This document shows, in pieces, positions 6,622 through 23,149 of a DNA stretch of 23,149 bases (its first letter is position 1; every line of letters begins with the position of its first letter). Position numbers and translations under genes: made by a program. The stretch comes from a virus. The notes under the pieces were generated by a model, which did not search any database, was not told the origin of the DNA, and saw only the letters and a list, made by a program, of their open reading frames with translations. Location: positions 1 through 23,149 of IMG/VR virus record IMGVR_UViG_3300025274_000070; one strand, given 5' to 3'.

Positions 6622-7295
6622 TGGCTTTATCAGGAACATATAATTTTGATCTCAATATAGATGAAGTTATACAGGAAGCAATGGAAATGATTGGGGGAGA
6701 ACAAACTCTTGGTCATGAACCAGCCTCTGCCAGAAGATCAATTAATCTTATGTTGAAAGACTGGCAGAACAGAGGTATTCTTTTATGGACTACACAAACT
6801 ACTTTAGTTACTGTATCTGCTAGTGTAACATCTTATGATATGGATGGCTCTGCTATAGATGCTCTTCAAGTTATTGTGAATAGAGATAATGTAGATATAG
6901 CTGCAACCAGAATTTCTTTTGAAGAATATCTTCACATTCCTCAAAAGGGACAAACTGGTAGAGCTAGTCAATATACTATTAAACGTAATCAAAGTAAGCC
7001 TACAGTATTTATTTGGCCTATACCAGAAAATTCTACAGATGTTTTAAAGATAGAAAAGATAAGTGAATTACAGGATGTAAATAAATCTGAGGGACAGAAT
7101 GCTGATCTTCCAAAAAGATTTCTTCCTCCTTTAACTTGTGGTTTAGCTTATTATATGTCAATGAAACGTCCTTTAGTTCCAGAGCAAAGAATAGGAATGT
7201 TGAAGGCAAATTATGAAGAACTTCTTGGTAGAGCTATGACAGAAGATAGGGAGCGAGCAAGTATGTTTTTTCTACCAAAGATTAGAGTTTATTAA
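6621..7295 (+). CDS. Head-tail adaptor / tail accessory factor, P22 gp4-like
   Basis: This 224-residue protein shows a conserved pattern: ASARRSINLMLKDWQNRGI near residues 35-53, a beta segment with TLVTVSASVTSYDM, then 'ISFEEYLHIPQKGQTGRASQYTI' (residues about 95-117 in parts), PTVFIWPIPENST, and a helical C-terminus with DLPKRFLPPLTCGLAYYMSMKRP and YEELLGRAMTEDRE. The order ARRSLNxMLxxWxxRG / YxxIPxKxxxGRPxxY / WPxP / LAYYxxxKxP is what I remember for adaptor proteins related to P22 gp4 in podophages. Such proteins form a ring under the portal and anchor the tail. It is clearly different in sequence from the other adaptor-like protein at 4379. The start is in a TAATG overlap with an embedded Shine-Dalgarno. 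Confidence 0.75.
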   Translation: MALSGTYNFDLNIDEVIQEAMEMIGGEQTLGHEPASARRSINLMLKDWQNRGILLWTTQTTLVTVSASVTSYDMDGSAIDALQVIVNRDNVDIAATRISFEEYLHIPQKGQTGRASQYTIKRNQSKPTVFIWPIPENSTDVLKIEKISELQDVNKSEGQNADLPKRFLPPLTCGLAYYMSMKRPLVPEQRIGMLKANYEELLGRAMTEDRERASMFFLPKIRVY

Positions 7296-7573
7296 TGGCT
7301 TCAAATAGAAGAGCATTAGCCATTTGTGATACTTGTGGATTTCAATATCCTCATAGAGTTATGAGAATGAATAGTTATGGGATGTTGGTATGTCCAGAAG
7401 ATTGGGAAGGTGCTTATGATTTAAAAAATAGTCCATTAAATAAATCTCCTAATGTTAAAGATAACATAGCAATTAGAAATCCTAGAGGACCGGATACTGG
7501 TGGAAGAAATATAACTTGGGAAGCTGCTACAACTTTATGGGAAAATGAATCTACTGATTGGAATCAAGTATGA
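7295..7573 (+). CDS. Small Cys-motif (zinc-ribbon-like) phage protein
   Basis: This 92-residue protein has CDTC (Cys11, Cys14) followed after 18 residues by CPED (Cys33, Asp36), the arrangement of a small treble-clef or zinc ribbon in which Asp takes the place of the fourth Cys. His20 lies between. I remember short phage proteins of the form 'ICDxCGFxYxxxxMxxxxxGLxVCxxxW' encoded between adaptor and tail genes, without known function. The rest is Asn-rich and ends in a WEAATTLWENEST stretch. The start overlaps the adaptor stop (TAATG). The final codon overlaps the fibre start (ATGA). Confidence 0.65.
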   Translation: MASNRRALAICDTCGFQYPHRVMRMNSYGMLVCPEDWEGAYDLKNSPLNKSPNVKDNIAIRNPRGPDTGGRNITWEAATTLWENESTDWNQV

Positions 7574-8934
7574 CTGACTTAACAGGGAAACAAATAGCTA
7601 ATACATATAAGCAACTTTTAAAAGTAGCTGTATCTACTAATGATGGTATTGATGCAACAGTAAGAACTATTGAAAGTGGAGATGGTACAAACTCTGCTCT
7701 TCAATTGAGTAATGGGGTTGTAAATGTAAATGGAACTTTTCAAATCAGTGGTGTTGCATTAACAGCTACTGTTTCTAAACTTAATGAATTAACTTCTATT
7801 GCTGGTACATTAACCTCTGTAGGTGCAGCATCTACTTATGGAACTGGAACAGGAATAGCTACTGATCCTTCTGCAGGTATAACCAATGAAGGATTTATTC
7901 AGTTACAGACTAATCAAAGTTTTGGAATAGTTTCTGTTTCAACTAATTTAGCTGGTGTACTGGGTGGATTTACAACAAGTTTAAGTGCAACGAATTTTGT
8001 TGCTGGTACAGGAAGTTTTACAACAAAGGTTTCTGGTGTAGCAGCAGAGTTTTCTGGGGCTGTTTCAGCAGCTAATGTCTATGCTACAACTCAGATCTAT
8101 ATTGGTGGAAGTGCAATTCCAAGTGCTAGTGATATTGCTGCAGTCAGTGCTTTAACATCAGTTAATAAAGCAGCAATTACATCTGTTAATACGGTTCTTG
8201 CAGCAACATCTGCGGCTTTGGCAACTAGTATAGGAACTACAAACACTCTTATCGCTACTACTTCTGCAGCTTTAGCCACAAGTATAGGAAATTCCAATAC
8301 AAATATTACAACTAATATTAATGCTATAACATCTATTAATACTGTACTTGCAGCTACTTCTGCTGCACTAGCTACAAGTATAGGTAACTCAAATACTCTT
8401 ATCGCGGCAACTTCTTCTGCTTTAGCAACAAGTATAGGAACTACAAATACTCGTGTTGCTGCTACCTCTGCAGCTTTAGCCACAAGTATAGGTAATCATC
8501 TTCCTCTGGCAGGAGGAACCTTAACAGGAACTGTATCGGGAACAGATTTTTATGTCAGTGCTGTAGCTATAGGAATTAATTCTCTTCTTGGAAAGAATTT
8601 AAGAATTGAAACTGCAGCAGTTGCAGATATTAATGCACTAACAGATGGCACAAATATTTCTGTAGATTTTAATGCAGGACAAAACTTTACTGTAACTCTT
8701 GCAGGAAATAGAACATTAGATAATCCAACGAATTGTGTTGCAGGACAAGTAGGAAGTATATTTATTGTACAAGATGGCACAGGTTCTCAAACTCTTGCTT
8801 ATGGAAGTAGTTGGGATTTTGCAGGAGGAGAAGCACCTACTCTTTCAACAGATGGAAATGCAATTGATAGGCTAGATTATATAGTTCATACATCTACAGA
8901 TGTCCAAGCTCTACTTACAAAGGCATATTCATAA
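7570..8934 (+). CDS. Tail fibre with repetitive stalk and C-terminal tip module
   Basis: I use the ATG at 7570, which overlaps the previous stop as ATGA, rather than a TTG 12 bases upstream; 454 residues result. The N-terminus (TDLTGKQIANTYKQLLKVA) looks like the conserved virion-binding start of marine phage fibres. Residues 211-308 contain five copies of an 18-residue-type repeat (AATSAALATSIG plus linker), typical of a trimeric stalk. A LPLAGGTLTG motif follows, common in trimeric fibres. Residues 357-454 (LTDGTNISVDF... through GNRTL, QDGTGS) form a beta-rich tip that is about half identical, without gaps, to the end of the second fibre at 12248. Role: host receptor binding. The stop overlaps the next ATG. 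Confidence 0.8.
   Translation: MTDLTGKQIANTYKQLLKVAVSTNDGIDATVRTIESGDGTNSALQLSNGVVNVNGTFQISGVALTATVSKLNELTSIAGTLTSVGAASTYGTGTGIATDPSAGITNEGFIQLQTNQSFGIVSVSTNLAGVLGGFTTSLSATNFVAGTGSFTTKVSGVAAEFSGAVSAANVYATTQIYIGGSAIPSASDIAAVSALTSVNKAAITSVNTVLAATSAALATSIGTTNTLIATTSAALATSIGNSNTNITTNINAITSINTVLAATSAALATSIGNSNTLIAATSSALATSIGTTNTRVAATSAALATSIGNHLPLAGGTLTGTVSGTDFYVSAVAIGINSLLGKNLRIETAAVADINALTDGTNISVDFNAGQNFTVTLAGNRTLDNPTNCVAGQVGSIFIVQDGTGSQTLAYGSSWDFAGGEAPTLSTDGNAIDRLDYIVHTSTDVQALLTKAYS
8200..8493 (+). repeat. In-frame 54-bp repeats in the fibre stalk
   Basis: Five units coding for the AATSAALATSIG core start at 8200, 8254, 8350, 8404 and 8458. Units one/two and three/four are directly adjacent, with 18-residue periods. 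Each pair is preceded by a TSVNTVL or TSINTVL heptad, and a 14-residue linker separates the pairs. Nucleotide copies have diverged at synonymous sites, so the duplication is not very recent or is under protein-level selection. Confidence 0.85.
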
Positions 8935-11315
8935 TGAGTGTATTTAGTAATAATCTTCTTTTAGGAGCAGGTGGTCAAGAGACTGCCCCCACTTTTGATA
9001 GTACTCTTATACCTAATTCAATTTGGATGGACGGGACAAGTGATAAAGTAACTAAAACAATGTCTGATGCAGGAGATGGATCAGAGTTTACACTTTCTAT
9101 GTGGATTCAAGCTAATGAAATTAGTAGAGGACACGCATTTCTTTGTTCTGGGGATTCTTCAGCTTATTCAAGTATAAGACTTGATTCAGATGATAAGATT
9201 TATTTTCAGACAAAAACAGGATCACAAATTTTAAATACTACTGCTGTATGGAGAGATAATGCTTGGTATCATTTCTTATTGAGTGTAGATACATCTCAAA
9301 GCACTCCTGCAGATAGAGTAGATCTTTACATAAATGGAGTGGCAGCAACATTAACTGGAACTTATCCTCCTCAAGATCATACTTATCAGTTTAATACTAA
9401 TACACTTCATGAGGTTGGAAGTAGTGTAGAAAATGGTTTGTGGAGAGGTTCTGTTGCTCAAGCATCTATGATTGGTACTAAGTCTATTCAGCAAGGAGAT
9501 TTTGCGGTAACAGATTTTCTGGATACTTTTACTTTTGGAACTAACGGTTCTCAATATGTACCTAAATCAGATGCAGATATTACAACACTAGTTAATACAG
9601 GAGGAGCTAATAGTTTTATGCTTTCCTTTGATGATTCTTCTAATTTAGGAGAAGATGAAAGTGATAATAGTAATAACTTTGGTTTAACAAGTATATCTTC
9701 TGCTAATCAGTCTACTAATACACCTTCTAAAGAATATGTTATATTAAACCAACTTGTTCCAAGTGTAGGAACTTTAACACAAGGTAATTTAATTTTTTCT
9801 GGAAGTACAAAATTTACTATAGGTACACTCTCTATAAATAACGCTGCTGGAGGAGTTTGGTATTTTGAAGCAACCATTGCTGAAGATAGTGGTTCGTCAG
9901 AATGGGCTGTTGGATTTGTAGGTTTAGATAGTAATATTAATGGAAGCGATATTACTTCTGCTTCAGATTGTGTATTATATACTGATGATAATAATAAAAT
10001 TGTTGATGGTACAGAAAGTTCTTATGGATCAGGATTTTCTTCAGGAAACACAATTGGATGTGAATTAGATTTAGCTGATAATGAAGTAAGATTTTATAAT
10101 AATTCTGGAGTGTCACTTGGAACTATTTCTAATACTTTTAGTTCTGATCTTATATCTATTTGTGTTAGAGCAAATGGAACAACTCTTACTTTAGCAATAG
10201 ACTCCTCTGATTGGACACATTCCACTCCAACAGGAGCTAAAGAAATTAGTACAGCTAATTTTACTGCCCCAAGTAATCAGGGTATAGACTTCTTTAATCC
10301 AGTTCTTTATACAGGAAATGGGACAGCAATAGGATCTGGAGGAAAGGCTGTTACAGGTGCAGGATTTGAGCCAGGATTTGTATGGATTAAAAATAGAGAT
10401 GCTACAGATAGTCATATGCTTTTTGATAGAGTTAGAACAACTACTAAATATATAGAGAGTGATACAGTAGATGCAGAAGCAACAGATACTGAATCTTTAA
10501 CTACTTTTGGTTCTGATGGATTTACAGTAGGAAGCAATGTAGCAGTTAATACAAACACAGAAGATTATGTTTCTTGGAACTGGGGTGCCGCTAGTGGAGC
10601 AGGAAGTACTACATCCCCTGCTGGAGATTTGGCTAGTACTTCTATTGTTGCCAGCGCAAAACATTTTTCAACAGTTTCTTATACAGGGACTGGTTCTGCC
10701 ACTACAACAGGGCATGGTCTTGGTGGTGCTGCAGAAATGATAATTGTGAAAAATAGAGATCAAGGAGATGCCTGGGCAGTTTATCATTCAGGAGTTGCTA
10801 GTGATGCAGAAACAGATTATCTAGTATTAAATACTACTGCTGCTATTTCTGATGATTCTACAATGTGGAATGATACTGCTCCTACTAGTTCTGTTTTTAG
10901 TATAGGGACTAATCATCAAGTTAATGCGAATACAGAAAAATATATAGCATATTGTTTTAGATCAATTGCTGGTGTATGTGCTGTTGGATCATATACAGGA
11001 AATGGAAATGCTGATGGTCCTTTGATTTGTACAGGATTTAAACCTAGATTTATCTTAATCAAGATATCAAGTTCTACAGGTAGTTGGTTTATGTATGATA
11101 CTGTTAGATCTTCTAGTAATGAAGTAGATGATCAGTTACTAGCTGAAGCTACAACAGTAGAAACAACTGGATCAGAGGAAATAGATATTCTTGCTGAAGG
11201 TTTTAAAATTAGAAATACAGATTCTGGAACAAATACAAGTTCAGCAACTTATGTATATTTAGCAATGGCAGACATTGGTGGAGGCGGAAGATTGCCTCCT
11301 ATATATGGAAAATAA
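8934..11315 (+). CDS. Mosaic tail protein: LamG-like, SPRY-like and DUF7483-like domains
   Basis: This 793-residue protein is a chain of predicted beta domains. Residues about 28-200 look like a LamG/concanavalin-type jelly roll (FTLSMWIQANE, WYHFLLSVDTS, VDLYINGVAA). Residues about 272-442 look like a SPRY domain (GVWYFEATIAED, WAVGFVGLD, IGCELDLADNEVRFYNNSG). Three related units follow, starting near 452, 577 and 682, with 'YTGNGxxxxxxxTGFxPxFVWIKNRD...YDxVR' patterns that I associate with the domain labelled DUF7483 in phage tail proteins. The C-terminus is Gly-rich. LamG and SPRY folds commonly bind sugars or proteins, so adhesion to host surface glycans is the likely role. It starts in a TAATG junction with the fibre gene. 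Confidence 0.75.
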   Translation: MSVFSNNLLLGAGGQETAPTFDSTLIPNSIWMDGTSDKVTKTMSDAGDGSEFTLSMWIQANEISRGHAFLCSGDSSAYSSIRLDSDDKIYFQTKTGSQILNTTAVWRDNAWYHFLLSVDTSQSTPADRVDLYINGVAATLTGTYPPQDHTYQFNTNTLHEVGSSVENGLWRGSVAQASMIGTKSIQQGDFAVTDFLDTFTFGTNGSQYVPKSDADITTLVNTGGANSFMLSFDDSSNLGEDESDNSNNFGLTSISSANQSTNTPSKEYVILNQLVPSVGTLTQGNLIFSGSTKFTIGTLSINNAAGGVWYFEATIAEDSGSSEWAVGFVGLDSNINGSDITSASDCVLYTDDNNKIVDGTESSYGSGFSSGNTIGCELDLADNEVRFYNNSGVSLGTISNTFSSDLISICVRANGTTLTLAIDSSDWTHSTPTGAKEISTANFTAPSNQGIDFFNPVLYTGNGTAIGSGGKAVTGAGFEPGFVWIKNRDATDSHMLFDRVRTTTKYIESDTVDAEATDTESLTTFGSDGFTVGSNVAVNTNTEDYVSWNWGAASGAGSTTSPAGDLASTSIVASAKHFSTVSYTGTGSATTTGHGLGGAAEMIIVKNRDQGDAWAVYHSGVASDAETDYLVLNTTAAISDDSTMWNDTAPTSSVFSIGTNHQVNANTEKYIAYCFRSIAGVCAVGSYTGNGNADGPLICTGFKPRFILIKISSSTGSWFMYDTVRSSSNEVDDQLLAEATTVETTGSEEIDILAEGFKIRNTDSGTNTSSATYVYLAMADIGGGGRLPPIYGK

Positions 11316-13179: not shown

Positions 13180-15054
13180 ATGTCTACACAATCACAACTA
13201 GCTAAATTAAAATTTAAACCTGGGATTAACAGAGAATCTACAGAATATGCTGAAGGTGGTACTCTACCAGGGGGTAACTGGTATGATGGTAATAAAGTTA
13301 GATTTAGGCAGGGAAGACCAGAAAATTTAAGAGGTTATAATAAAAGATCAACTTCTTCTTTTGATGGAACAGCAAGAGATTTACTTGCTTGGTCAGACAA
13401 TGATACATTCAAGTTTGCTTCTTTTGGGACAGAAAAAAAGTTATACGAATATAATGATAATTCAATCTTGGATATCACACCTATCAAAGAGGTTTCCGTA
13501 GGAACTAATGTTTCTGCCGTTGTCACAATTGATGGAACAAATAATGGATTTTATACTACTGATGGTTCAACAAGAGTATCTGTCTCTGTATCAAGTCATG
13601 GAGCAGAGACAGGAGATTTTATTACGTTTACTTCTGGGACAACAATTGGAGGGACAATAGATTTAACAGGTGGAACATTTGCTGTATCTGTTTTAGGAGA
13701 TAATCAGTTTTCTTTTGCAGCATCTGTAACAGCTAATGCTACACAAAGTAAGGTTGGGACTGCAACATTGAAATATCTTCTACCTACAGGAACAGATGCA
13801 GCAATCCAGGGTTTAGGCTATGGAGCAGGAGTTTATAATGCAGGAACTTCTACAACTGGAATGAGGGCATGGAGTGAGGCTGCAAGTTCTTCTAATATTG
13901 TTACAAGAATTACTCAATGGACATTAGATAATTGGGGAGAAGATATTCTTGCTTGTAGAAGGGGAGGAAGAATATATTTCTGGGATTCCATTAGAAGCTC
14001 AACTCCTCCAAGAGCAGGATTTGTAAGTGCTTCTCCATCCATTAATAATTATATTATTGTATCTCCTAATGATAGACATTTGATTTCATTGGGAAGTAAT
14101 GAGTATGGAACAGGAACATATAATCCATTATTGGTAAGATGGTCTGATCAAAATAATTATAATAATTTTACTCCTTCCATTAGTTCAACTTCAGGAGAAA
14201 ATATTCTGGCTGATGGAACAGAAATTATTGGAGCAACGAAATCTCGTAATGGTATTATGGTTTGGACAGATAATTCTATTTGGCAAATGCAATTTGTTGG
14301 GCCTCCTTTTACTTTTGCATTTCAACAAATGGGTACTAATTGTGGATTGATTGGTCCTCATGCTGCAATAAATTATGATGGTGTAGCTTATTGGATGGGA
14401 GATGATAACTTTTATGCCTTTGAAGGTCGAGTAATAAATCTTCCTTGTACAGTGAGAAGATATATATTTGATGATTTTAATACAACAAATAAAGATAAAG
14501 TTTTTGCAGGAATCAATTCTGAATTTAAGGAAGTGATCTGGTTATATCCTTCTTCAGATTCTACAGAATGTGATAAATATGTTATATATAATACAGCAGA
14601 AAAAGCTTGGTATTATGGGTCAACTATTTATACAACATTCTTTGATAAAGTAATTTTTGATAATACTTTAACAACTGGAGTTTCTGTTTCTGCATATCTT
14701 TATAATAATGAACCAGATGGAATATATACAGCTAATGGTGCGGCACAGACATCTTTTATTGAATCTGCTGCTTTTGATATAGATCCTGATGGAACACATA
14801 TATTGTTTGCAGACAGATTAATACCAGATTTTACTCTATCAGGAGGGAACTTAGGATTTAGTATCACTGTACAGAATTTTCCTGTGAATGATCAAATTAA
14901 AAAGGGACCATTTGTTATTTCTCCAACAACTAAGAAGGTTGATTTTAGAGCAAGAGGAAGGCAAGCTGTTGTTCGGGTTTCTTCAGGAGAAGCAGGAACT
15001 AGCTGGAGATATGGCTCATTGAGACTTTCATTACAACCTGACGGGCTACGGTAA
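13180..15054 (+). CDS. P22 gp10-like tail hub / DNA-stabilisation protein
   Basis: This 624-residue protein begins LKFKPGINRESTEYAEGGTL followed by GGNWYDGNKVRFRQGRPENLRGY, the pattern I associate with P22 gp10-type tail hub proteins of podophages ('PGIxxxxTxYAxExxWxDxxxVRFRxGxPExxGGW'). The rest alternates short strands and Trp/Tyr-containing turns, such as RWSDQNNYNNFTP, NGIMVWTDNSIWQMQFVG and NSEFKEVIWLYPSSDS. That is consistent with a beta-propeller-like body. In P22 and T7 the equivalent hub plugs the portal channel below the adaptor. Residues 105-195 carry a Ser/Thr/Val-rich beta insert. No clear ribosome-binding site is present, only AAGGA 18 bases upstream, so coupling to the fibre gene is likely. 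Confidence 0.75.
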   Translation: MSTQSQLAKLKFKPGINRESTEYAEGGTLPGGNWYDGNKVRFRQGRPENLRGYNKRSTSSFDGTARDLLAWSDNDTFKFASFGTEKKLYEYNDNSILDITPIKEVSVGTNVSAVVTIDGTNNGFYTTDGSTRVSVSVSSHGAETGDFITFTSGTTIGGTIDLTGGTFAVSVLGDNQFSFAASVTANATQSKVGTATLKYLLPTGTDAAIQGLGYGAGVYNAGTSTTGMRAWSEAASSSNIVTRITQWTLDNWGEDILACRRGGRIYFWDSIRSSTPPRAGFVSASPSINNYIIVSPNDRHLISLGSNEYGTGTYNPLLVRWSDQNNYNNFTPSISSTSGENILADGTEIIGATKSRNGIMVWTDNSIWQMQFVGPPFTFAFQQMGTNCGLIGPHAAINYDGVAYWMGDDNFYAFEGRVINLPCTVRRYIFDDFNTTNKDKVFAGINSEFKEVIWLYPSSDSTECDKYVIYNTAEKAWYYGSTIYTTFFDKVIFDNTLTTGVSVSAYLYNNEPDGIYTANGAAQTSFIESAAFDIDPDGTHILFADRLIPDFTLSGGNLGFSITVQNFPVNDQIKKGPFVISPTTKKVDFRARGRQAVVRVSSGEAGTSWRYGSLRLSLQPDGLR

Positions 15055-15086
15055 AGTATGGCAACATATCCACAACTCCGTAGTCT
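15043..15086 (+). promoter_or_regulatory. Nested RNA hairpin enclosing the start codon of the 93-aa gene
   Basis: CTACGG (15046-15051) pairs with CCGTAG (15078-15083); the stem can grow to nine pairs (15043-15051 with 15078-15086), two of them G-U. Inside the loop, GTATG (15056-15060) pairs with CATAT (15065-15069) around a GCAA tetraloop, covering the ATG at 15058. The left outer arm is the last codons of the gp10-like gene. No Shine-Dalgarno is seen. A ribosome finishing the upstream gene would open the outer stem, so this looks like a coupling device. Confidence 0.4.
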
Positions 15087-15339
15087 TGTCAGGATTGGAG
15101 ATTATACAGCGAAAGAATTTTATGAGATGTTAGAAGATTGGGGTGCTGTCTTAGTTAATACTTTAGAGCAAAGAGATAATCAAGTAGATGCTACACCATC
15201 TACAAATATTTACACTGTAGTTTGTGTAACAAGTGTAGGACGCCCTCAAGGAGGAGATATAGTGTATATTGCAAGTAGAGGAAAATTTGCAGGGTATGTT
15301 AGTTTAGGAGCAGAAACTTCTTGGCAGGATTTGAATTAA
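15058..15339 (+). CDS. Small protein encoded after the tail hub gene (93 aa)
   Basis: The 93 residues have an N-terminal helix (TAKEFYEMLEDWGAVLVNTLEQRD) and a beta-type remainder (NIYTVVCVTSVGRPQGGDIVYIASRGKFAGYVSLG), with no signal or membrane segment. I remember similar tiny proteins placed directly after gp10-like hub genes in marine podophages, so a small tail-hub or tail-tip part is likely, but no function is known to me. The start is only four bases from the upstream stop, is covered by a nested hairpin and lacks a ribosome-binding site, so translation is probably coupled. The stop overlaps the next ATG (TAATG). Confidence 0.65.
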   Translation: MATYPQLRSLVRIGDYTAKEFYEMLEDWGAVLVNTLEQRDNQVDATPSTNIYTVVCVTSVGRPQGGDIVYIASRGKFAGYVSLGAETSWQDLN

Positions 15340-17852
15340 TGGCAAATAATTTACATAGAGCAAGACCAGTAAAAAAGCCACCAGAACCTCTTCCTGTATC
15401 TTTAAGAGTTATAATGAAGCGTCTTAAAATTGATGATCCTTCTAACTTATTAGATTTTGCTAGAAGGGTTAGAGATGTAGAAAGTTCTGGTGGTACAAAG
15501 AAAGTAAATCCTAATAGTAATGCAAGAGGAATTTATCAATGGATGACATCAGATTTTGGAAAGGGTGAAAAGAAAGGAACTATTGAAAGTGCCACTCATA
15601 ATTTAATAAAGTCTTATAATAAAGAAGGAATAGAGATACCAGATTGGTTGTTAAGTTTAGATAGGAATGCAGAAATATTGCGCCAGAATGAGGGGTATAT
15701 AAAGACTTTAACACAAGAAGATTGGCAGAATCAAGTACTCGATTTAAAACCACATATGGAGGATGCACTATTTTGGTCATACCTAGATCAACAGCCAGGA
15801 ACTGATGAGAAGTGGTTAACAATAACTTATGGTAATGATACGCCTTGGCCCAAAAAAAATGATAAGCCGCGTTACTGGGCAATGTTGGATACTTATATTA
15901 AGCATCACCATAGAGGAGGAGAAAAGGTAGAAAAGGAAAAATTTAGAGATGTTAATATAAGAAAGAAATTTGGTTTACCAGCGTATCATAAAGATGAAAA
16001 TCCTTTTCAACCTGCACTTCCAATGTCTGATATAAGATTAGATGAAGAACTTCACGCACCATATCAACTCTATGAATTACCTACGCTTCTAAATGAAAAA
16101 CCTATCCTTAGAGGGACACCGGAGGACACAATGAATACAGGATTAAAAAGTTTACAAAAACAAAGTGACGGCCAAATATTTGAAGATATTGATATAGAAC
16201 ATTGGACAGAGGAAATGGAGGATACTTACCGGAAAAGGCTGGCACGAGAAAATGCAGAAAGGGAAGAGACTCAAAGAGCTTATGAGTTAAGCAGATATGG
16301 AGTTTTTCCAGAGTTATTTGAAGATATTGATGTAGAACATTGGATAGATCCTATTCTTACAGATTATGATAAAGTTTCAGAAAAAGATAGAGATAAGTTA
16401 TGGTCTTCAATTCCTCGACACTGGCGACAGGCTTATTCTTTAGATGATTTTAAACAACGAGAAGATTATTGGAGAACTTTGAGACAAAAAGAAGAAGAAG
16501 AGTCTCAAAGGTTGTGGGAAAGATATTATAGAGGTAAAGCTCTAGCGGAGAAACATCGTGATGCAGAGATATTATCCACTGATGATGCTATTGAACAACA
16601 ATTAGTAACTATTCCCGAAGCACCATTTACTGAAGATGATTTGAGAATTCTGGCACCATTTACTGAAGATGATTTGAGAATTCTGAGACAAAAAGAAATT
16701 GTTGATGACATTATTGCTTCTGATCTCAACTTAATGTACCTTCCTCATAATAGAAAGTTCGGAGGATTAGTATCTTTGGCTAATGGAGGAAATCCTTACG
16801 TCTACGAGGATATAGTAGAAGATGCTATGTATGAATCACCTCAAGAAAGTTATGAATATCAAGATTACAGTTCACAAGAAGAAACGCCGTTACCGTATAA
16901 TTTAGCAACTACTCCCGGAGCACCACTTATTCCTGTTTATGGAGGAAATGTAAACCCAGATTATATGGCTCTGCATCCTAATTATAGTATAGTAGAGGAT
17001 TTGGCACAAGCTAGACAATATAGTTCTCCCTTAAACTTTGTAAAGGAAACATCCCCTGCTACATTAGGTTCACCAATGGATATTAGACCTACTTCTTTAG
17101 AAATAGCAAATTATAATAGATTACGAGAGAATGTAGCCCAACGACAAAGAGAGAATGATGACCAAGGGATAAACTGGAAAAATGTAGGACTAAGCGCATT
17201 GAAAAATACAGGAAAATTTATAGGGTCAGGTTTGGTTAATGCACTAACAGGAATCCCAGTGCCAATGGTTTGGCCTATGGCGACAGTAGGTCGTGGTATG
17301 TTTCAACATCATAAAAATATAAGAGACTATGGACGAGATTATAGGGATAATGCTGATATAGTTGCCCAACTTAAAGAGCAAGGTAAGTTTGTTGATATAG
17401 AGGGACCAAGTAGGGAATGGTGGGATGATGATTCCGAAGAGGAATACTCTTCTCCCTGGCGGAAGACCCCCAACCTAGGTCTAAGGTATCTTGATCAACC
17501 TTTTAATGAACCTGAAGATATGAGGTATGGTGTATATAAGGCAGGAGGTTTAATATCTCTGCAAGGAGGAGGAAATCCAATAGCAAATAATTTTACTCAA
17601 CATATTCGAGAAGGTATAAATAGTGGAATAAGAAGTATGGTAGCAAATGCTTATGCTCAAGGAAATGTTCCTCCTCCTTCTTCTCCACAACTTACTCAAT
17701 CACAACTATTAAATCAAGGACTAACTATGGCTCCTAATACAGCTAATAGACCTGTACCACAGCAACCTCATGCACAGAGTAACATTAGTAATGTGTATGC
17801 TCAAAGTACACAACCACAATCTTATTATATGCAACCCAACCAGATTAGGTGA
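15339..17852 (+). CDS. Large ejection-type protein with N-terminal lysozyme/transglycosylase-like domain
   Basis: I start it at the ATG in the TAATG junction (837 residues), not at a TTG 18 bases upstream. Residues 38-190 carry a lysozyme-like fold signature: DVESSGGTKK with probable catalytic Glu48, then NSNARGIYQWM, as in soluble transglycosylases ('ESxG...ARGxxQ'). Later segments are charged and helical with internal repeats (FEDIDIEHW at 281 and FEDIDVEHW at 327; APFTEDDLRIL at 428 and 439). Two Gly-Gly signatures occur (FGGLVSLANGG, AGGLISLQGGG). Around residue 615-650 is a hydrophobic Gly-rich segment. The C-terminus is Gln/Pro/Asn-rich. The likely role is a virion protein injected with the DNA that cuts peptidoglycan locally, as T7 gp16 does. 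Confidence 0.7.
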   Translation: MANNLHRARPVKKPPEPLPVSLRVIMKRLKIDDPSNLLDFARRVRDVESSGGTKKVNPNSNARGIYQWMTSDFGKGEKKGTIESATHNLIKSYNKEGIEIPDWLLSLDRNAEILRQNEGYIKTLTQEDWQNQVLDLKPHMEDALFWSYLDQQPGTDEKWLTITYGNDTPWPKKNDKPRYWAMLDTYIKHHHRGGEKVEKEKFRDVNIRKKFGLPAYHKDENPFQPALPMSDIRLDEELHAPYQLYELPTLLNEKPILRGTPEDTMNTGLKSLQKQSDGQIFEDIDIEHWTEEMEDTYRKRLARENAEREETQRAYELSRYGVFPELFEDIDVEHWIDPILTDYDKVSEKDRDKLWSSIPRHWRQAYSLDDFKQREDYWRTLRQKEEEESQRLWERYYRGKALAEKHRDAEILSTDDAIEQQLVTIPEAPFTEDDLRILAPFTEDDLRILRQKEIVDDIIASDLNLMYLPHNRKFGGLVSLANGGNPYVYEDIVEDAMYESPQESYEYQDYSSQEETPLPYNLATTPGAPLIPVYGGNVNPDYMALHPNYSIVEDLAQARQYSSPLNFVKETSPATLGSPMDIRPTSLEIANYNRLRENVAQRQRENDDQGINWKNVGLSALKNTGKFIGSGLVNALTGIPVPMVWPMATVGRGMFQHHKNIRDYGRDYRDNADIVAQLKEQGKFVDIEGPSREWWDDDSEEEYSSPWRKTPNLGLRYLDQPFNEPEDMRYGVYKAGGLISLQGGGNPIANNFTQHIREGINSGIRSMVANAYAQGNVPPPSSPQLTQSQLLNQGLTMAPNTANRPVPQQPHAQSNISNVYAQSTQPQSYYMQPNQIR
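16179..16343 (+). repeat. Internal 9-residue repeat (FEDID-EHW) in the lysozyme-like protein
   Basis: Codons for FEDIDIEHW (16179-16205) and FEDIDVEHW (16317-16343) are nearly identical at nucleotide level, with 46 residues between starts. The flanking sequences differ. It looks like an old partial duplication or a repeated linear motif. Confidence 0.6.
16621..16686 (+). repeat. 33-bp in-frame tandem duplication
   Basis: The 33-base unit 16621-16653 is repeated at 16654-16686 with a single difference at the last base, giving APFTEDDLRIL twice in a row (residues 428-438 and 439-449). The near-identity means a recent slippage event or active exchange. It keeps frame in the lysozyme-like protein gene. 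Confidence 0.95.
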
Positions 17853-17858
17853 TAAATT

Positions 17859-19361
17859 ATGGCACAATATATTAATAGAAACGCACCAGGAGCAGGTCTT
17901 GCAAGTTTGATGGCTGCAAGAGGAAGAGGAGGAGATACTGAACTAGTCCATATGACTAGACCAGAGGTTAAGAGATTAGAAGCTTCAGGGTTAATGTCTT
18001 TAAATCCTCAAACTGGACTACCTGAGTATTTCCTTGGAGGTTTAAAGAATTTTGCTAAAAGCTTGGTTAAGCCAAGAAATCTAGCTGCGTTAGCTGCTGG
18101 AATAATGTTTGGTCCTGCAATTTATGGTGCTATAGGAGGTGCTATGGGAACAGGATTATTCGGAACTTTGGCAACTGGTGCGTTAGGTGGAGCCGCTGTT
18201 GGAGGTCTAACTGGAGCTATAGCTGGTCAAGATATTCCAAAAAGTATTGTGTTTGGAGGAGGAACTGGATTAGCGGGTTCAGCAGTTGGTTATGGAACAG
18301 GAAAATGGGCTGATAGCCGTGCTCTTGCACGAGGCCATCAAGCACAAAAAGTTATTGATGCAAACAAATATAGGCAGCAGGTAGCGGGGGTATATCCAGA
18401 GAAACTAGCAGAGATAAGTAATATGCCAGTATCGGAATTACAAACAGCAGTACAGAGATCTGATGCGATATCTAAAATGGCTACACAACAACCAGATATC
18501 TTGAAAAAGATTGGAATAACTAATCTTCCTCCTCAATCTGTAAGAACAGCAGCTTTTACACCAGTTTCCCCTGAAACTATAAGAAGCAGTATTCAAGGAC
18601 CAGGATCAGCAGGATATTATGATGTAGCATCTAGAATACCTGGTGGGGGTATTCCTACTCCAGGGGCTGTGAGGAAAGCAAGATTAGGTACAGATTTATT
18701 TTCAGCTAGGACACCTATTCAAAGTATGAAAAATGTAGGAAAATATTATGAACAGAGTCCTTCAAAATTACTTTCTGTTCCTTCACAAGTATTAACTACT
18801 AGAGCACTTGTAGAAGAGGATGAGGCTGCTGAAGAACTACGAAAGAAACAAGAAAAGGCTATGTTAGCTGGTTCTCAACGTGAGACATATACACAAAAAG
18901 ATAGAAAATATAGACAACCTTCTTTACGTTCAGATCCTCCTACTTTAGAAGCAACTCTTGCTAGATATTATGGAGGAATAGGATCTGGAGACTGGGGAGG
19001 TCGCTGGTATGGATCGCTTAGTGGTAAAGATATCTATCCTGATGTGATTGCTAAAAGAGGAGGGCTTGTCTCTCTTGAAAAAGGAGGGAGAGCTTTTGAA
19101 GGAAAGGTAGAAGGGCCAGGACATGGGATGCAAGATAATGTTATGATGCCTATTGAGGGAGGAGGCATTGCAGCAGTATCTCCAAAAGAATATGTAGTAC
19201 CAGCAGATGTTATGGCTATGTTAGGTAATGGAAATGCAGATGATGGTTCTGAAAAGATGGATAGATTTATATCTACATTTAGAAAAACAAAATATGGAAG
19301 AGATAGACAACCTCCAGAAATGGATGGATCAACAGCATTGCAATCATTAATTAAAGCATAA
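17859..19361 (+). CDS. Glycine-zipper membrane-active virion protein
   Basis: This 500-residue protein has three visible parts. The N-terminus carries RGRGGDTELVHMTRPEVKRL and SLNPQTGLPEYF, a signature I remember from many marine phage virion proteins ('GDTxLxHM...NPxTGLPE'). Residues about 74-150 are very hydrophobic and Gly/Ala-rich with many GxxxG spacings (GPAIYGAIGGAMGTG, GALGGAAVGGLTGAIAG), suited to membrane insertion or pore formation. The C-terminus has KRGGLVSLEKGG and then GPGHGMQDNVMMPIEGGG with SPKEYVVPADVMAML, another repeated marine phage signature. Placed among the large ejected proteins, a role in crossing the cell envelope is likely. AGGTGA 6 bases before the ATG is a fair ribosome-binding site. 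Confidence 0.65.
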   Translation: MAQYINRNAPGAGLASLMAARGRGGDTELVHMTRPEVKRLEASGLMSLNPQTGLPEYFLGGLKNFAKSLVKPRNLAALAAGIMFGPAIYGAIGGAMGTGLFGTLATGALGGAAVGGLTGAIAGQDIPKSIVFGGGTGLAGSAVGYGTGKWADSRALARGHQAQKVIDANKYRQQVAGVYPEKLAEISNMPVSELQTAVQRSDAISKMATQQPDILKKIGITNLPPQSVRTAAFTPVSPETIRSSIQGPGSAGYYDVASRIPGGGIPTPGAVRKARLGTDLFSARTPIQSMKNVGKYYEQSPSKLLSVPSQVLTTRALVEEDEAAEELRKKQEKAMLAGSQRETYTQKDRKYRQPSLRSDPPTLEATLARYYGGIGSGDWGGRWYGSLSGKDIYPDVIAKRGGLVSLEKGGRAFEGKVEGPGHGMQDNVMMPIEGGGIAAVSPKEYVVPADVMAMLGNGNADDGSEKMDRFISTFRKTKYGRDRQPPEMDGSTALQSLIKA

Positions 19362-19371
19362 GGATAAAAAG

Positions 19372-22300
19372 ATGGGAATTACATCAATATTAGGTGGGCC
19401 AAGACCAGCAGGTACTCCTGTAGGAGCAGCAACTCAGATAACAACTACTGAGCTTCCTTCAGAGTTCAAGCCTTTTATTACAGATATTTTTGAGAAGGCT
19501 AAAGCTCAACAAGAAGGACTAGAATATACACCTTATCCAGGGGCAAGACTTGCACCCTTTGGTCCCTTACAGCAAGAAGCTTTTACAGGTTTAACTGATC
19601 TGGTAAGGCAAGGTGTAGTAGGTGCTCCTGATACTTCTAGTGCTTTCTATGCTCAAGAAGCTTTAGAGGCTGCTAGAAGGGCTGGAAGACCTATAGAGGC
19701 TGCAGATATAGAAAGATTAACTAATCCTTATCAACAACAAGTTATTGATATTGCAAAAAGAGAAGCTGAAAGATCTTATGAAACAACTGTTGCTCCACAG
19801 ATTGAACAACAGGCAGTAGCTGCAGGTTCTTATGGTGGATCAAGAGGAGCTATTCTTGAATCTGAAGGATTAAAAAATCTACAACAGCAGCTATCAGATA
19901 TTCAAATGAAAGGAAGTGCTCAAGCCTATCAACAAGCTCAAAAAGCTTATGAACAGGAAGCAACTAGAGCAAGAGGATTACAAGGATTTATGCAACAGCA
20001 ATTTGGGCAGGTTCCTTCTCAAGCTGTAAAAGAATTAGGAGTTCTGCAGTCTGTTGGTGAAGCGCAACAATTACTTGATCAGAAAGCATTAAATTTAGGT
20101 TATGAAGATTTTCTTGAGGAAAGAGAATTTCCAACAAGATCCTTACAAGAATATCAAGCTTCTATAAGAGGCTTTCCTTATACACCAGCAGCTTATCAGT
20201 ATACCCAACAGACTGCTCCTACACCTTCTCTTGGACAAACCTTACTTACTGCTGGTGCTCAAGGTCTAGGAATGTATGGTACATTAGGTGGGTTTGGTTT
20301 TGGTGCTCCCCCACAGAAGGCTGCTTCTGGTGGACAGATCAGAGGAGGACTATCTGGACTAGTTGAATCTCATCAGAATAATACATTTGGAGATAGGTAT
20401 AGAGCAGGTATGGGTCTTGGGCCTGGTCAGAAGTTTGGAGGGGAAAGACATGGAGGTAGAAGCTTTGGAGGTAGAAGCTTTGGAGGTAGAAGCTTTGGAG
20501 GTAGAAGCTTTGGAGGTAGAAGCTTTGGAGGTCACAGATTTGGAGAGCAAGAAATAGATCCTCGTAGTCTTATTAATATGCTGTATGATCCAGAATTAAC
20601 TGAAGATGAGCAACAACTAATACAAGAAAAGTTAAAGGATATGGGTATACGCTCTACTGAAGATCTGTGGGGCAAGGACGAAGAGATGGTACAGTTCCCT
20701 TTGGTTCCTGGCGCTACAATAGCAGCTAATCCTAATATAGAAATGGTTACGATGCCAGCAGTTTCTCCAACGCCCCGACTAAGGCCACCACCATCTATAC
20801 CTAGTATTACTTCTCCTCAAATAGACCAGTTGAATCAAAGGATTAAATCTTTAAAACAACAAGGCGTTTTGGATGCTGCAAGCATACTAGAAAAACAAAG
20901 AGATGAACTGATAGACCAAATAAGAAATGCAGCAGATCCTGTTCTTAGGCGCAGAAACCTTGCTAAAGAAGTATTGGAGGCACAACGTCTTGCAGAAGGG
21001 GCTATATATGAATCTGGAGAATATGAACCTCTAGCTATATCTCTGTCTCCTGTTATTTTAGATGAGACAGAAATACCAAGTCCAGATAGAATAGATCCTA
21101 CTGATATTTCTTTTGATGCATCTATAAGAAGATTGATGACTGCTCAAGACGAGGAAGCCACTGCTCACGAAGAGCGTCTTGCTACTTTAAAAAGTATATA
21201 TGGCCCAGATAGTGAGATAGTTAAGACTTTTAATCAATATAGAGGTTCACTAGTTGATCAAGGTGAGGCAGCAAGACTAGCTTATGGACACAAGGAAAGG
21301 CTTAGAAGGGAACGGGCTGGTGATGTAGAAGCTAGAATAACGGGTACTACAACTGATTATGAGCAACATAGAGAAGATCTTGCAGAGGTACAGGGTAAGA
21401 TAGGGGAAGCGCATACTAAATCTTTAGCTGATGCAGAAGAAGCAAAAGAGAAAGCTGCAGAGATGTATAGACAGGAACAAGAATCTTTAAGGAATCAAAG
21501 AAGTTTTGAAGTTGCTGCAGCATTTGGGCAAGTTGGTAAAATACCTAAAGAAGAAGCTGGACTCTCTGGCTTTCAAGGATTTGTAACTACTTTAGGCAGA
21601 ATTGCTTCAGAAGCTACTGAAGCGATGGCTCCACAATTAAGAGGACTAACTGAGAAGGAAAGAAAATCAAAAATAAAACAAGTTGAAAGAGATATTTTAG
21701 ATACCAGTAAGATCAATGAAATAAATTTGGGTATTCTTAATTATGATAAAAATGTTCTTACTGAACTAAGGGAATTAAATAATAATTATAACCAGACCCT
21801 AGATCGTCTACAGGACCAGATGTTCAACTTAAAGGTAACTGAGGTTATGACACCTGTAGAGAAAGCGGAAGCTTTATCTAATATAAGGCTTACAGAACTT
21901 GATGTAACAAAACAGCTACTAGAGATTCAGCTTACCGTTGATACTGCTACTATTGCTGCTGCACAAGCTAAAACAGAAAATGAAGCGAAGGTAGCACAGC
22001 TAATAGTTGATCTAGCAAGAGCAAATTCGACCCGACTTCCTAGAATTACAACAGGTGATCTTTCGAAAGTAAATACTATAATTACCGATCTTTTTAAAGA
22101 GCATCCACTTTACCATACTAGAGAGTTTCAGGAGACATTAAGAAAAGGTAGGGTCGAAATGATAACATTTTTAAGTAATTCGACAGAGCCAAATCCAACG
22201 GTGGCAATGGGTGATGCTATAGAACTACTTAATCAGAGGGTGCTGCCTGACGCAGTATTAGAAGGAGAGCATAGTACCTTTTCTGTACTAAGAGAGAATA

Positions 22301-22458
22301 TTCCAATAGAATATATAGGTGATTTTGCAAGAGCGAGAGATAATGCTATAAACGAGGGGGGCAAAAAGGATGTCGTTGAGAAGCATTATATAAGAGAATT
22401 TATACAACAGTTTGGTGGAAATGAACAACAGGCTAGAAGAATACTTGGTTGGAGCTAG
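19372..22458 (+). CDS. 1028-aa ejection-type virion protein with SFGGR repeats
   Basis: Residues about 25-240 form a conserved-looking region: ELPSEFKPFITDIFEKAKA, YPGARLAPFGPLQQEAF, TNPYQQQVIDIAKREAERS and a GSYGGSRGAILESEG loop. I remember this order in marine phage proteins grouped with the lysozyme-like and Gly-zipper proteins. Residues 285-320 are Gly-rich and hydrophobic. SGGQIRGGLSGLVES carries the Gly-Gly signature near residue 320. Residues 361-390 are five perfect SFGGR-type repeats. From about 480 onward the protein is highly charged and helical, with predicted coiled coils (HKERLRRERAGDVEAR, LADAEEAKEKAAEMYRQEQE). It is probably an internal core or ejected protein. AAGGAT lies 7 bases before the ATG. 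There is no enzyme motif. Confidence 0.65.
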   Translation: MGITSILGGPRPAGTPVGAATQITTTELPSEFKPFITDIFEKAKAQQEGLEYTPYPGARLAPFGPLQQEAFTGLTDLVRQGVVGAPDTSSAFYAQEALEAARRAGRPIEAADIERLTNPYQQQVIDIAKREAERSYETTVAPQIEQQAVAAGSYGGSRGAILESEGLKNLQQQLSDIQMKGSAQAYQQAQKAYEQEATRARGLQGFMQQQFGQVPSQAVKELGVLQSVGEAQQLLDQKALNLGYEDFLEEREFPTRSLQEYQASIRGFPYTPAAYQYTQQTAPTPSLGQTLLTAGAQGLGMYGTLGGFGFGAPPQKAASGGQIRGGLSGLVESHQNNTFGDRYRAGMGLGPGQKFGGERHGGRSFGGRSFGGRSFGGRSFGGRSFGGHRFGEQEIDPRSLINMLYDPELTEDEQQLIQEKLKDMGIRSTEDLWGKDEEMVQFPLVPGATIAANPNIEMVTMPAVSPTPRLRPPPSIPSITSPQIDQLNQRIKSLKQQGVLDAASILEKQRDELIDQIRNAADPVLRRRNLAKEVLEAQRLAEGAIYESGEYEPLAISLSPVILDETEIPSPDRIDPTDISFDASIRRLMTAQDEEATAHEERLATLKSIYGPDSEIVKTFNQYRGSLVDQGEAARLAYGHKERLRRERAGDVEARITGTTTDYEQHREDLAEVQGKIGEAHTKSLADAEEAKEKAAEMYRQEQESLRNQRSFEVAAAFGQVGKIPKEEAGLSGFQGFVTTLGRIASEATEAMAPQLRGLTEKERKSKIKQVERDILDTSKINEINLGILNYDKNVLTELRELNNNYNQTLDRLQDQMFNLKVTEVMTPVEKAEALSNIRLTELDVTKQLLEIQLTVDTATIAAAQAKTENEAKVAQLIVDLARANSTRLPRITTGDLSKVNTIITDLFKEHPLYHTREFQETLRKGRVEMITFLSNSTEPNPTVAMGDAIELLNQRVLPDAVLEGEHSTFSVLRENIPIEYIGDFARARDNAINEGGKKDVVEKHYIREFIQQFGGNEQQARRILGWS
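20451..20540 (+). repeat. 15-bp tandem repeat (five perfect units plus one degenerate)
   Basis: The unit TGGAGGTAGAAGCTT is repeated without a mismatch from 20451 to 20525; a sixth, diverged copy ends at 20540. In frame it codes for GGRSF repeats in the 1028-residue protein. Perfect identity, including synonymous sites, marks very recent expansion, and copy number is likely to vary between phages. Confidence 0.97.
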
Positions 22459-22467
22459 AAAATTAAA

Positions 22468-23149
22468 ATGCCTCCTTCTTTATTTCCACCTGTAGTTTAT
22501 AGTAAGTTAGGACCAACAAGAGAAGACTATTCTCCTAGTGAAGAAGAGTTTACAGAAGAAGGGCTGACTCATAATCCTAAGTGGTTAAACCATGCTCGTA
22601 CTGTATATAAATCAGAACATGATGGAGAAGACTGGAAAAAATCAAATAAGAAATTAGGTGAGTGGTTTAAAAATAGACATTCCGAAATAGGAAATGACTT
22701 AACAAGTATGGGTTGGTTAGCTTATAAAGCAGATGATTTTGATTATGCTACTAAAAAAGCTTGGGTAGAGTCTATGGATATGTATGAAAATCTTGATGTA
22801 GATCTACAAACAGTAAGAAGAGCAATTAAAAATACAATACAAGATCCTTCCTTTTTGATACCAACATTAGCTACAGCAGGTTTTGCTGGTGTTGCCAGAC
22901 TTGTTGGTGGAAAAGGAGCACAATTTGTTGGAAGGCTTGCATTTAAAGAACAATTGAAAAGAGCTTTAGCTAAAGAAGGCGTATCAAAGAAGGGTCTAAA
23001 AGAATTTGTTGAAAAAGGTGTGTCTAAAGAAATTGATGTTCCTCTTTTAAAACGAGCAAGACAAAAGGCAAGACGAAAGTGGGGTGCTGGACAAGCAGCT
23101 TCATTTGGTGGGTGGGGTGCAGCTCATGGTGGTCTTGAAAGTATTGAAA
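22468..23149 (+). CDS. Large ejection-type virion protein, 3' end outside window
   Basis: The frame runs from an ATG at 22468, nine bases after the previous stop, to the end of the window (227 residues readable). It opens with FTEEGLTHNPKWLNHARTVY, then WKKSNKKLGEWFKNRHSEIG, LTSMGWLAYKADDFDYATKK, YENLDVDL and IQDPSFLIPTLATAGFAGVA with a short Gly/Ala-rich hydrophobic stretch (about residues 124-147). A very basic region follows (RARQKARRKWGAG). I remember this 'EExLTxxxxWxxxAxxxY ... LxxMGWxxY ... DPxxxxxxxTxG' opening from very large virion proteins in marine podophages. Such proteins are presumably ejected to span the envelope. GGAG lies 13 bases upstream, too far to be strong. The full length and any enzyme domain are unseen. 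Confidence 0.65.
   Translation, partial: MPPSLFPPVVYSKLGPTREDYSPSEEEFTEEGLTHNPKWLNHARTVYKSEHDGEDWKKSNKKLGEWFKNRHSEIGNDLTSMGWLAYKADDFDYATKKAWVESMDMYENLDVDLQTVRRAIKNTIQDPSFLIPTLATAGFAGVARLVGGKGAQFVGRLAFKEQLKRALAKEGVSKKGLKEFVEKGVSKEIDVPLLKRARQKARRKWGAGQAASFGGWGAAHGGLESIE

Follow-up and report, generated by a model that had tools for sequence, protein, structure and literature searches.

A probable ejection-protein cassette of a LUZ24/SU10-like podovirus

A four-gene cassette at the end of the window

Four consecutive large open reading frames (ORFs) close the virus record IMGVR_UViG_3300025274_000070 of IMG/VR, whose full stretch of 23,149 bases is called the window here. The locus raises the question of whether these genes encode proteins that leave the phage head at infection and whether they represent a new kind of machine. 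An initial annotation, made from the sequence alone, had read them as ejection-type proteins, one with a peptidoglycan-cutting domain, and had suggested a distinct ejection machine of short-tailed aquatic phages. We found that the four genes very probably constitute the ejection (internal virion protein) cassette of a LUZ24/SU10-like podovirus, because ORF3 is homologous to known ejection proteins, a tail nozzle and adaptors are encoded upstream, the gene order is constant among relatives, and ORF4 is homologous to a protein annotated from tandem mass spectrometry (MS/MS) of virions. The ejection of all four proteins, the site of each protein and the enzyme activity are inferred. The kind of machine is already known, and its form here is a variant and not a distinct kind.

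All four ORFs lie on the + strand, directly downstream of a podovirus nozzle gene on the same strand. ORF1 (15339-17852) has 837 amino acids (aa) from the ATG at 15339, the A of which is the final base of the upstream TAA stop codon, or 843 aa from the TTG at 15321, 18 bases before. It is followed by ORF2 (17859-19361; 500 aa), a candidate membrane ejection protein in the gp14/gp7 role, and by ORF3 (19372-22458; 1028 aa), a putative ejection protein that matched phrog_4287 'DNA ejection protein' (1.7e-17). ORF4 (22468-23149) is truncated by the window end and comprises the first 227 aa of a large putative ejection protein. Its full form of 1559 aa is present in G002, the longer record (36,315 bases) of a near-identical phage (L018:8888-13567:-), in which the major capsid protein (MCP), ORF1, ORF2 and ORF3 are 100%, 98%, 99.6% and 99.9% identical to those of the window.

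Relatives were collected by IMG/VR scans with ORF2, ORF3 and ORF4 and then with iterated profiles; the lists of relatives comprise the best 80 of 97 and the best 80 of 231. The 213 records were reduced to 115 by shared 40-mers and, after removal of four reference phages, to 111 non-redundant loci including the window. As the loci were recruited via ORF2-4, the counts test order and not frequency. The cassette order was nozzle, 93-aa protein, ORF1, ORF2, ORF3, ORF4. The five genes other than ORF1 were all present in 45 of the 111 loci and stood in the identical order in every one of them (45/45), with ORF1 recognised in 34 of these 45. Nozzle, ORF3 and ORF4 kept their order in 49/49 loci that have them, and wherever ORF3 and ORF4 occurred together ORF4 lay downstream on the same strand (58/58), at a gap of at most 60 bases in 52 of the 58. 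With redundant loci included, ORF2 homologues were found in 155 loci, the 93-aa protein was matched in 134, and ORF4 gave 170 matches in 169 loci. Since the ORFs have relatives in many virus contigs and a constant order, it was confirmed that they are conserved genes and not chance ORFs, and the four consecutive large genes of the initial annotation stand.

Judged by sequence identity, the ejection genes are diverging or recombining at a far higher rate than the MCP and nozzle genes. The MCP of relatives G006 and G007 is 97-98% and the nozzle 90-94% identical to that of the window; in G005 and G007, ORF2 is 47-50% and ORF4 40-44% identical. In several relatives a gene of ~140 aa resembling LUZ24 gp54 separates ORF2 from ORF3 (L174:5690-6106, L088:4812-5234, L029:15827-16225 and others), and it has no counterpart in the window. 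CRP-901 carries a gene annotated as GNAT at this position.

ORF3 and known ejection proteins

The conserved N-terminal domain of ORF3 (19372-20406, + strand) provided the link to known ejection proteins. A profile of this domain, trained before any SU10 or LUZ24 sequence was added, matched SU10 gp21 at 3.3e-13 (40.4 bits; best of 400 shuffles -6.7), LUZ24 gp53 at 8e-9 (26.0 bits; best shuffle 5.2, 398 scored of 400) and SU10 gp22 at 1.1e-4 (12.4 bits; best of 400 shuffles -11.8). These three were the sole matches at 0.05 among 140 ORFs of at least 80 aa in the SU10 and LUZ24 stretches searched. The profile also found untrained homologues in MinM2, Caulobacter phage RW, Ochrobactrum phage OH, Microcystis phage Mel-JY34, DSL-LC04 and CRP-901. 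The SU10 proteins gp21 and gp22 have been reported to leave the SU10 head (PMC9509320), and on the strength of the profile matches ORF3 is a homologue of proteins reported as ejected. With shuffled sequences scoring far lower, the reading of the genes as ejection-type is well supported. The proposal of a distinct machine did not hold, given the homology of ORF3 to SU10 gp21/gp22 and LUZ24 gp53 and that of the nozzle to LUZ24 gp56.

Genes of a probable short tail upstream of the cassette

The tail nozzle gene (tubular tail B-like; 13180-15054, + strand, 624 aa) matched phrog_3287 (5e-84). Among the chains of the PDB, the nozzle matched 9nwi_Y (3.2e-19; named capsid and scaffold protein there) and two chains named nozzle, 8zkm_E (6.4e-9) and 8zkk_O (7.1e-9), and the nozzle family profile matched LUZ24 gp56 at 2.3e-36. 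A first tail adaptor (tubular tail A-like; 4379-5068, + strand) matched PF24175 SU10_adaptor at 1.3e-19, and a second adaptor paralogue (6621-7295, + strand) matched PF24175 at 1.1e-8. Further upstream, record G003 (MCP 100% identical) encodes an 880-aa portal (phrog_1216) as well as a terminase large subunit (phrog_38). Homologues of the capsid protein in CRP-901/902, DSL-LC04, HTVC023P, MinM2 and HTVC027P share 48-52% identity with it; a similar protein occurs in 23 named records, and marine or freshwater phages account for several of these. Tail-tube and sheath families were absent from the PHROGs matches obtained for 26 of 27 ORFs in the window, the remaining genome not having been scanned for them. 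The nozzle, adaptor, terminase/portal and capsid-protein matches point to a short-tailed phage (podovirus), as the initial annotation had it, and the aquatic phages among the named records agree with that reading. The two adaptor paralogues in one phage recall the 'dual tubeA' arrangement described for phage PhiGT1 (PMC10386132).

ORF1 and its lysozyme-like domain

ORF1 comprises a lysozyme-like N-terminus, a long charged middle, a hydrophobic stretch and a conserved short C-terminus. The C-terminal segment (17511-17849, + strand; O1C profile) makes up nearly all of ORF1 in most relatives. Its family comprised 46 ORFs in 46 non-redundant loci, with lengths of 69-94 aa in 35 (one of them, of 94 aa, cut by the locus end) and of 393-847 aa in 11. 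The N-terminal lysozyme/lytic-transglycosylase-like domain (15393-16055, + strand) carries the motif VESSGG...GIYQW...HHRG, the glutamate of which is residue 54 counted from the TTG start and 48 from the ATG. The domain with VESSGG...GIYQW is conserved across three lineages, namely the window type, G010 and G007, and was aligned with L041 and L020; when the domain alignment was used for another scan, only these lineages were recovered (6 loci). A similar domain forms the C-terminus of the ORF4 homologue of L061, where the profile match was weak (domain E 0.086) and it is the common motif blocks AESS, GAYQF and AHHTG that carry the assignment.

The domain is quite probably a divergent lytic transglycosylase with a predicted activity, a call that is based on the motif and on a weak MltE-like fold. 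The AlphaFold2 (AF2) model had a predicted local distance difference test score (pLDDT) of 69.8 and a predicted template-modelling score (pTM) of 0.71; it was built from four sequences, in an alignment of four rows in which MAFFT misplaces the YQ motif of L061. When the model was compared with VIA-align, MltE occupied 5 of the top 8 rows (Z 3.5-4.0, 112-115 residues, root-mean-square deviation 3.9-4.5), with alignments spanning model residues 1 to 195-197, and Glu30 lies within the helix 17-32. These Z values are under the safe level of VIA-align, and the first row was an unrelated protein at Z 4.1. It is rather unlikely that the domain is instead a non-enzymatic structural domain of the head or tail with an ESSGG..YQ motif by chance. 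Apart from these modest scores, such a reading is favoured by the Pfam search, which gave no family at E <= 1, SLT (PF01464) included, although the same library detected SLT in SU10 gp20 and in RW GP063; by Foldseek, which gave no match at E <= 0.001 (best E 1.0); and by hhalign against the T7/RW domain (prob 0.2%, E 0.25). The same hhalign alignment, weak as it is, superposes E-S on E-S and the Q of GIYQW on Q, and this, the recurrence of MltE, the similar domain that ends the L061 protein and the SLT protein at the same place in SU10 argue for the enzyme. The peptidoglycan-cutting domain is therefore likely, not proven. A wall-cutting domain is already known to move among ejection proteins (T7 gp16, K1E gp35; PMC8954989), so the placement in ORF1 is a variant and not a new principle. 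The ORF1 N-terminus, the end of the L061 ORF4 homologue and the last cassette gene of phage RW add cases of such a domain on differing ejection proteins.

ORF2 and the GG tag

In ORF2 a conserved N-terminus (GDTELVHMTxPEV...N..TGLP) precedes a Gly-zipper hairpin; of 65 complete ORF3 homologues, 14 also have this N-terminal motif. The Gly-zipper hydrophobic region (18039-18338, + strand) has a Kyte-Doolittle (KD) score of 1.69 at aa 75-93 and 1.33 at aa 99-117, and contains overlapping GxxxGxxxG repeats. The Gly-zipper membrane protein proposed initially is supported by these two stretches and repeats, but the count of GxxxG (n=10 vs 5.8 in shuffles, p 0.026) exceeds composition only mildly. 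GxxxGxxxG repeats are present in P22 gp7 and there are none in T7 gp14. By analogy, these features support the view that ORF2 may work like gp7/gp14, which does not imply membership of either family. The window ORF2 weakly matched phrog_342 'internal virion protein with endolysin domain', at 1e-4 across the Gly-rich aa 75-289, and such a match was given by only 1 of 21 ORF2 homologues. A match of ORF2 to LUZ100 gp45 (2.5e-4) was set aside, both proteins being Gly/Ala-rich. As to the putative coiled coil of ORF3, one 61-residue stretch free of Pro and Gly (829-889) was seen.

The C-terminal domain of ORF2 (19029-19358, + strand; GHGMQDN...SPKEYVVPADVM) is its most conserved part and contains a GG tag. 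It is near-invariant across 5 aligned sequences, the middle of the protein being divergent, and the O2C profile matched 141 loci, redundant ones included. The tag is common to ORF1-3 and follows the pattern [KRHASTQNED][AEKRSQTNDHG]GG[LIVGQM][VILSQRMA]. It was present in 12 of 27 ORF1 homologues (3.3 in shuffles), 46 of 59 for ORF2 (19.4) and 53 of 65 for ORF3 (27.8); this excess is descriptive only, as the homologues are related to one another and the pattern was composed after viewing the window. No enrichment was seen for the nozzle (8/60, 12.5 expected), the 93-aa protein (1/64, 1.0), ORF4 (14/73, 29.4) or the endolysin (0/35, 1.4). Internal tags in ORF1 and ORF2 read KAGGLISLQGGG and KRGGLVSLEKGG. 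Four small ORFs lie between the adaptors on the + strand (5328-5762, 5778-5981, 5984-6370 and 6370-6621). Three of them carry the tag (5328-5762, 5984-6370 and 6370-6621), two at the very C-terminus, in the forms YKKGGQV and YNKGGQV. A description of the tag was not found in a partial search of the literature.

ORF4 and its predicted helical core

The first profiles contained the HTVC027P, phi18:3, Y3 and LUZ100 loci, and the ORF4 figures given here are from a metagenome-only profile without them. It matched proteins of Pseudoalteromonas phage Y3 (2.8e-178), HTVC027P (gp85, 4.9e-142) and Cellulophaga phage phi18:3 (gp123, 3.5e-138), the last being the protein annotated from virion MS/MS. LUZ100 gp47 was matched through the ORF4 N-terminus at 7.6e-7 (19.9 bits; best shuffle 3.7, 285 scored of 300). 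LUZ100 gp47 stands at the T7 gp16 position, and its authors reported strict synteny although sequence equivalents of T7 gp15 and gp16 were not obvious (PMC10134795). Two moderately hydrophobic stretches were found in ORF4 (129-147 and 250-268; KD 1.49). The protein starts with ...FPPVVYSKL and ends with ...FPPVVYSQLR, a repeated terminal peptide (L018:8888-13567), and the form at L030:12412-16881 has tandem YIPVDYSQFD/YTPVDYSQFD at its N-terminus.

A core of ~1000 residues forms the C-terminal part of ORF4. From 73 homologues, four reference phages and L029 were excluded earlier; the core was measured in 67 of the remaining 68, one lacking its late part, and ended at most 150 aa from the terminus in 67/67 and at most 60 aa in 63. 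L061, whose gene is cut at its 5' end and which has a domain after the core, is outside this count. In all 12 proteins of more than 1800 aa the core was again the C-terminal part. Three of four long forms (1524-3485 aa) carried polyvalent-protein domains, namely ART-PolyVal with LPD23, InPase with LPD5 and LPD1, and LPD3, the fourth having none; ART-PolyVal was found in 1 of 31 other ORF4 sequences scanned. An AF2 model of aa 540-1559 (pLDDT 75.1, pTM 0.59, 58 sequences) was predicted to be helical and had 47 BFVD neighbours at E <= 1e-3, 12 of which bear the name large polyvalent protein. The matches listed in the fold searches with the core (50 per search) did not include T7 gp16. A VIA-align match of the core to a designed helical protein (Z 7.0) was rejected as a common helical arrangement, and the internal virion protein of Pelagibacter phage Eyrgjafa (BFVD rank 49, E 1.4e-3, TM 0.21) was too weak to use. 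PDB sequence searches with ORF1, ORF4 and the profiles A4, A5 and A6 gave nothing useful; the best match, at 0.0032, was to a designed protein. Once filters were off, weak matches of the ORF4 profile to the ORF3-type proteins OH_p40 (1.3e-3), MinM2_23 (5.5e-3) and SU10 gp21 (2.2e-3) appeared, which composition could explain and which were left unused.

Of greatest interest is the prospect that ejection and polyvalent proteins share the ORF4 core as a chassis. Polyvalent proteins have been proposed to be packed and injected (PMC5512222). We tentatively consider it possible that the core is a general packaging-and-ejection chassis, used for conduits (ORF4, phi18:3 gp123, HTVC027P gp85) and, with added N-terminal effector domains, for polyvalent proteins, and that packaging relies on the GG tag to dock ORF1-3 and the small proteins of the head region to one another. 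In that case, polyvalent effectors and gp16-like ejection proteins would form a single family, and the chassis could serve to recognise cargo. When profiles of the nozzle, the 93-aa protein, the ORF1 C-terminus, ORF2 and ORF3 were run on 14 loci with giant or reference ORF4 forms, a single match was obtained (nozzle, L082, 4.5e-4); sharing of the cassette by those phages is thus not supported beyond the core itself, which slightly lowers this reading. By eye, the gene before the giant in six giant loci encodes a charged or Gln-rich protein, unrecognised by the cassette profiles. LPD38 (PF18857) was not detected with the ORF4 core in any of 20 records, a set outside which MinM2 lies, but 14 of 14 control genomes were silent too; it was detected only in MinM2_25, which the ORF4 profile does not match (E 0.42). 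A partial literature search found no link between polyvalent proteins and gp16-like ejection proteins.

Proposed route and alternative explanations

After adsorption, the nozzle would open and the four proteins would exit the head ahead of the DNA. The Gly-zipper hairpin of ORF2 would insert into the outer membrane as a pore, as in the gp14/gp7 role, and the N-terminal domain of ORF1 would cut the peptidoglycan locally. ORF3 may line the periplasmic conduit (gp15/gp20 role), and ORF4, with its moderately hydrophobic N-terminal stretches and predicted helical core, may cross or dock at the inner membrane and engage the entering DNA (gp16 role).

Several results weigh against the assignment as an ejection cassette. 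The remote-homology search proposed in the initial annotation was run with the ORF1-4 profiles against T7 gp10A-17 and P22 gp4-26 and gave nothing significant for the ejection proteins of either phage, and no significant fold link to them was obtained; the sequences are, as first stated, not obviously related. The lowest E values with the family profiles were 0.061 (gp14), 0.083 (gp15) and 0.34 (gp16) for T7 and, for P22 gp7/gp20/gp16, 0.015 (gp7, ORF4 profile), none of which amounts to similarity. N4 gp50 (2342-aa part) and gp51-54 had no significant profile or fold link (lowest profile value 0.027, gp53), and the profiles gave nothing significant for N4 gp55, gp57 and gp64 either. The ORF2 profile found nothing in SU10 or LUZ24 at 0.05, SU10 gp24 went unmatched by the ORF4 profile, the model of the ORF4 core has no PDB neighbour, and the enzyme call on ORF1 is weak. 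ORF2-type proteins are, moreover, sometimes annotated as tail tape measure: the DSL-LC04 homologue (1.3e-27) bears this name, and phrog_5448 (tape measure) matched 1 of 21 ORF2 homologues at 2.7e-4. The C-terminus of ORF2 also resembles a motif that is common at tape-measure C-termini. That the cassette is a siphovirus tail-tip module, with ORF2 or ORF3 as the tape measure of a long tail, is nevertheless highly improbable, with a nozzle that matches solved podophage nozzles, two SU10-type adaptors, synteny with LUZ24 and SU10, and no tail-tube or sheath family in the window ORFs scanned.

A different role for ORF4 alone, mainly as an injected multi-purpose effector (polyvalent protein) with the channel built by ORF1-3, is unlikely. 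It would fit the giant proteins that end in the ORF4 core, some with ART-PolyVal, InPase or LPD domains, the 12 polyvalent-named neighbours in BFVD, and the LPD38 giant of MinM2, which stands last in a syntenic cassette but is unmatched by the ORF4 profile. The full form of the window ORF4, however, has no Pfam enzyme or effector domain, where polyvalent proteins have several, and its N-terminus matches LUZ100 gp47, the syntenic equivalent of T7 gp16. Effector and conduit roles are also compatible, T7 gp16 being believed to reach the cytoplasm as well (PMC8954989). The ejection cassette is widespread and mostly 'hypothetical'; its tie to experimentally known ejection proteins makes large genes of podovirus contigs nameable, and the C-terminal core that its largest protein shares with giant polyvalent proteins makes effector packing and delivery testable in cultured phages.

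Comparison with named systems

The gene order had been likened to that of T7 and P22. SU10 (Escherichia phage, Kuravirus) is the better parallel for its lysozyme-first arrangement; in T7 it is gp16, the last of the core proteins, that bears the lysozyme domain (PMC8954989). Like the window, SU10 gp20-gp24 has a transglycosylase-type protein first (gp20, 260 aa, SLT PF01464 at 1.1e-23), then further ejection proteins, and a protein of more than 1400 aa last (1473 aa), so that the order matches. The SU10-type adaptors and the homology of gp21/gp22 to ORF3 add to the likeness. The SLT domain of gp20 is recognised by Pfam, whereas that of the window is divergent and fused into the 837-aa ORF1; SU10 has two ORF3-type proteins, ORF2 and ORF4 have no recognised counterpart in it, and the window nozzle profile matched none of the SU10 ORFs searched.

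LUZ24 (Pseudomonas phage, Bruynoghevirus) shares the nozzle gp56 and the ORF3-type gp53 in the same order within gp49-gp56, and its gp54 resembles the small gene between ORF2 and ORF3 of several relatives (7.5e-6); no ORF2 or ORF4 homologue was detected in it, and the ORF1-domain profile gave no significant match. In HTVC027P, HTVC023P, CRP-901/902, DSL-LC04 and MinM2, the phages that share the capsid protein, the nozzle is 27-36% identical. HTVC027P gp82, gp83 and gp85 are ORF2-, ORF3- and ORF4-like; gp82 and gp83 were in the profile training and gp85 was found also without it. The genes of this group are mostly annotated hypothetical, and CRP-901 has a separate gene annotated lysozyme. In Caulobacter phage RW, nozzle, ORF2-type and ORF3-type genes stand in the same order upstream of the last cassette gene, GP063, but the SLT domain is at the C-terminus of that gene (PF01464 2.2e-17, aa 610-694) and not in the first. 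T7 gp14/gp15/gp16 resemble the cassette in comprising a membrane protein, a conduit protein and a very large last protein, with one lysozyme-like domain in the set, and differ in having no significant sequence similarity. The polyvalent proteins (Iyer et al. 2017, PMC5512222) are alike in that giant proteins have the ORF4 core at their C-terminal end; they differ from the window ORF4 in their effector domains.

Neighbouring genes

The 93-aa protein (15058-15339, + strand) lies between the nozzle and the ejection genes. Its C-terminus reads GKFxGYV...W.DLN, which resembles the ends of tail fibres, so the protein is possibly external. A GroES-like co-chaperonin (PF00166, 1.1e-9) is encoded at 414-836, upstream of the capsid genes, and CRP-901 likewise encodes one there. 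A protein with repeated ATSAALATSIG units, seen by eye (7558-8934), and a 793-aa lectin-like/SPRY/DUF7483 protein (8934-11315) are probable receptor-binding fibres.

In G002, ORF4 is followed by an M15-peptidase endolysin (PF08291, 4e-17) and then by a small protein, a possible holin as judged by eye. Relative G006 has 55,223 bases and is probably complete, because it carries a 132-base terminal repeat of 99% identity. Outside the window, L018:1-8200 holds genes that by eye are ribonucleotide-reductase-like, glycosyltransferase-like, Fe-S-carrier-like and MazG-like.

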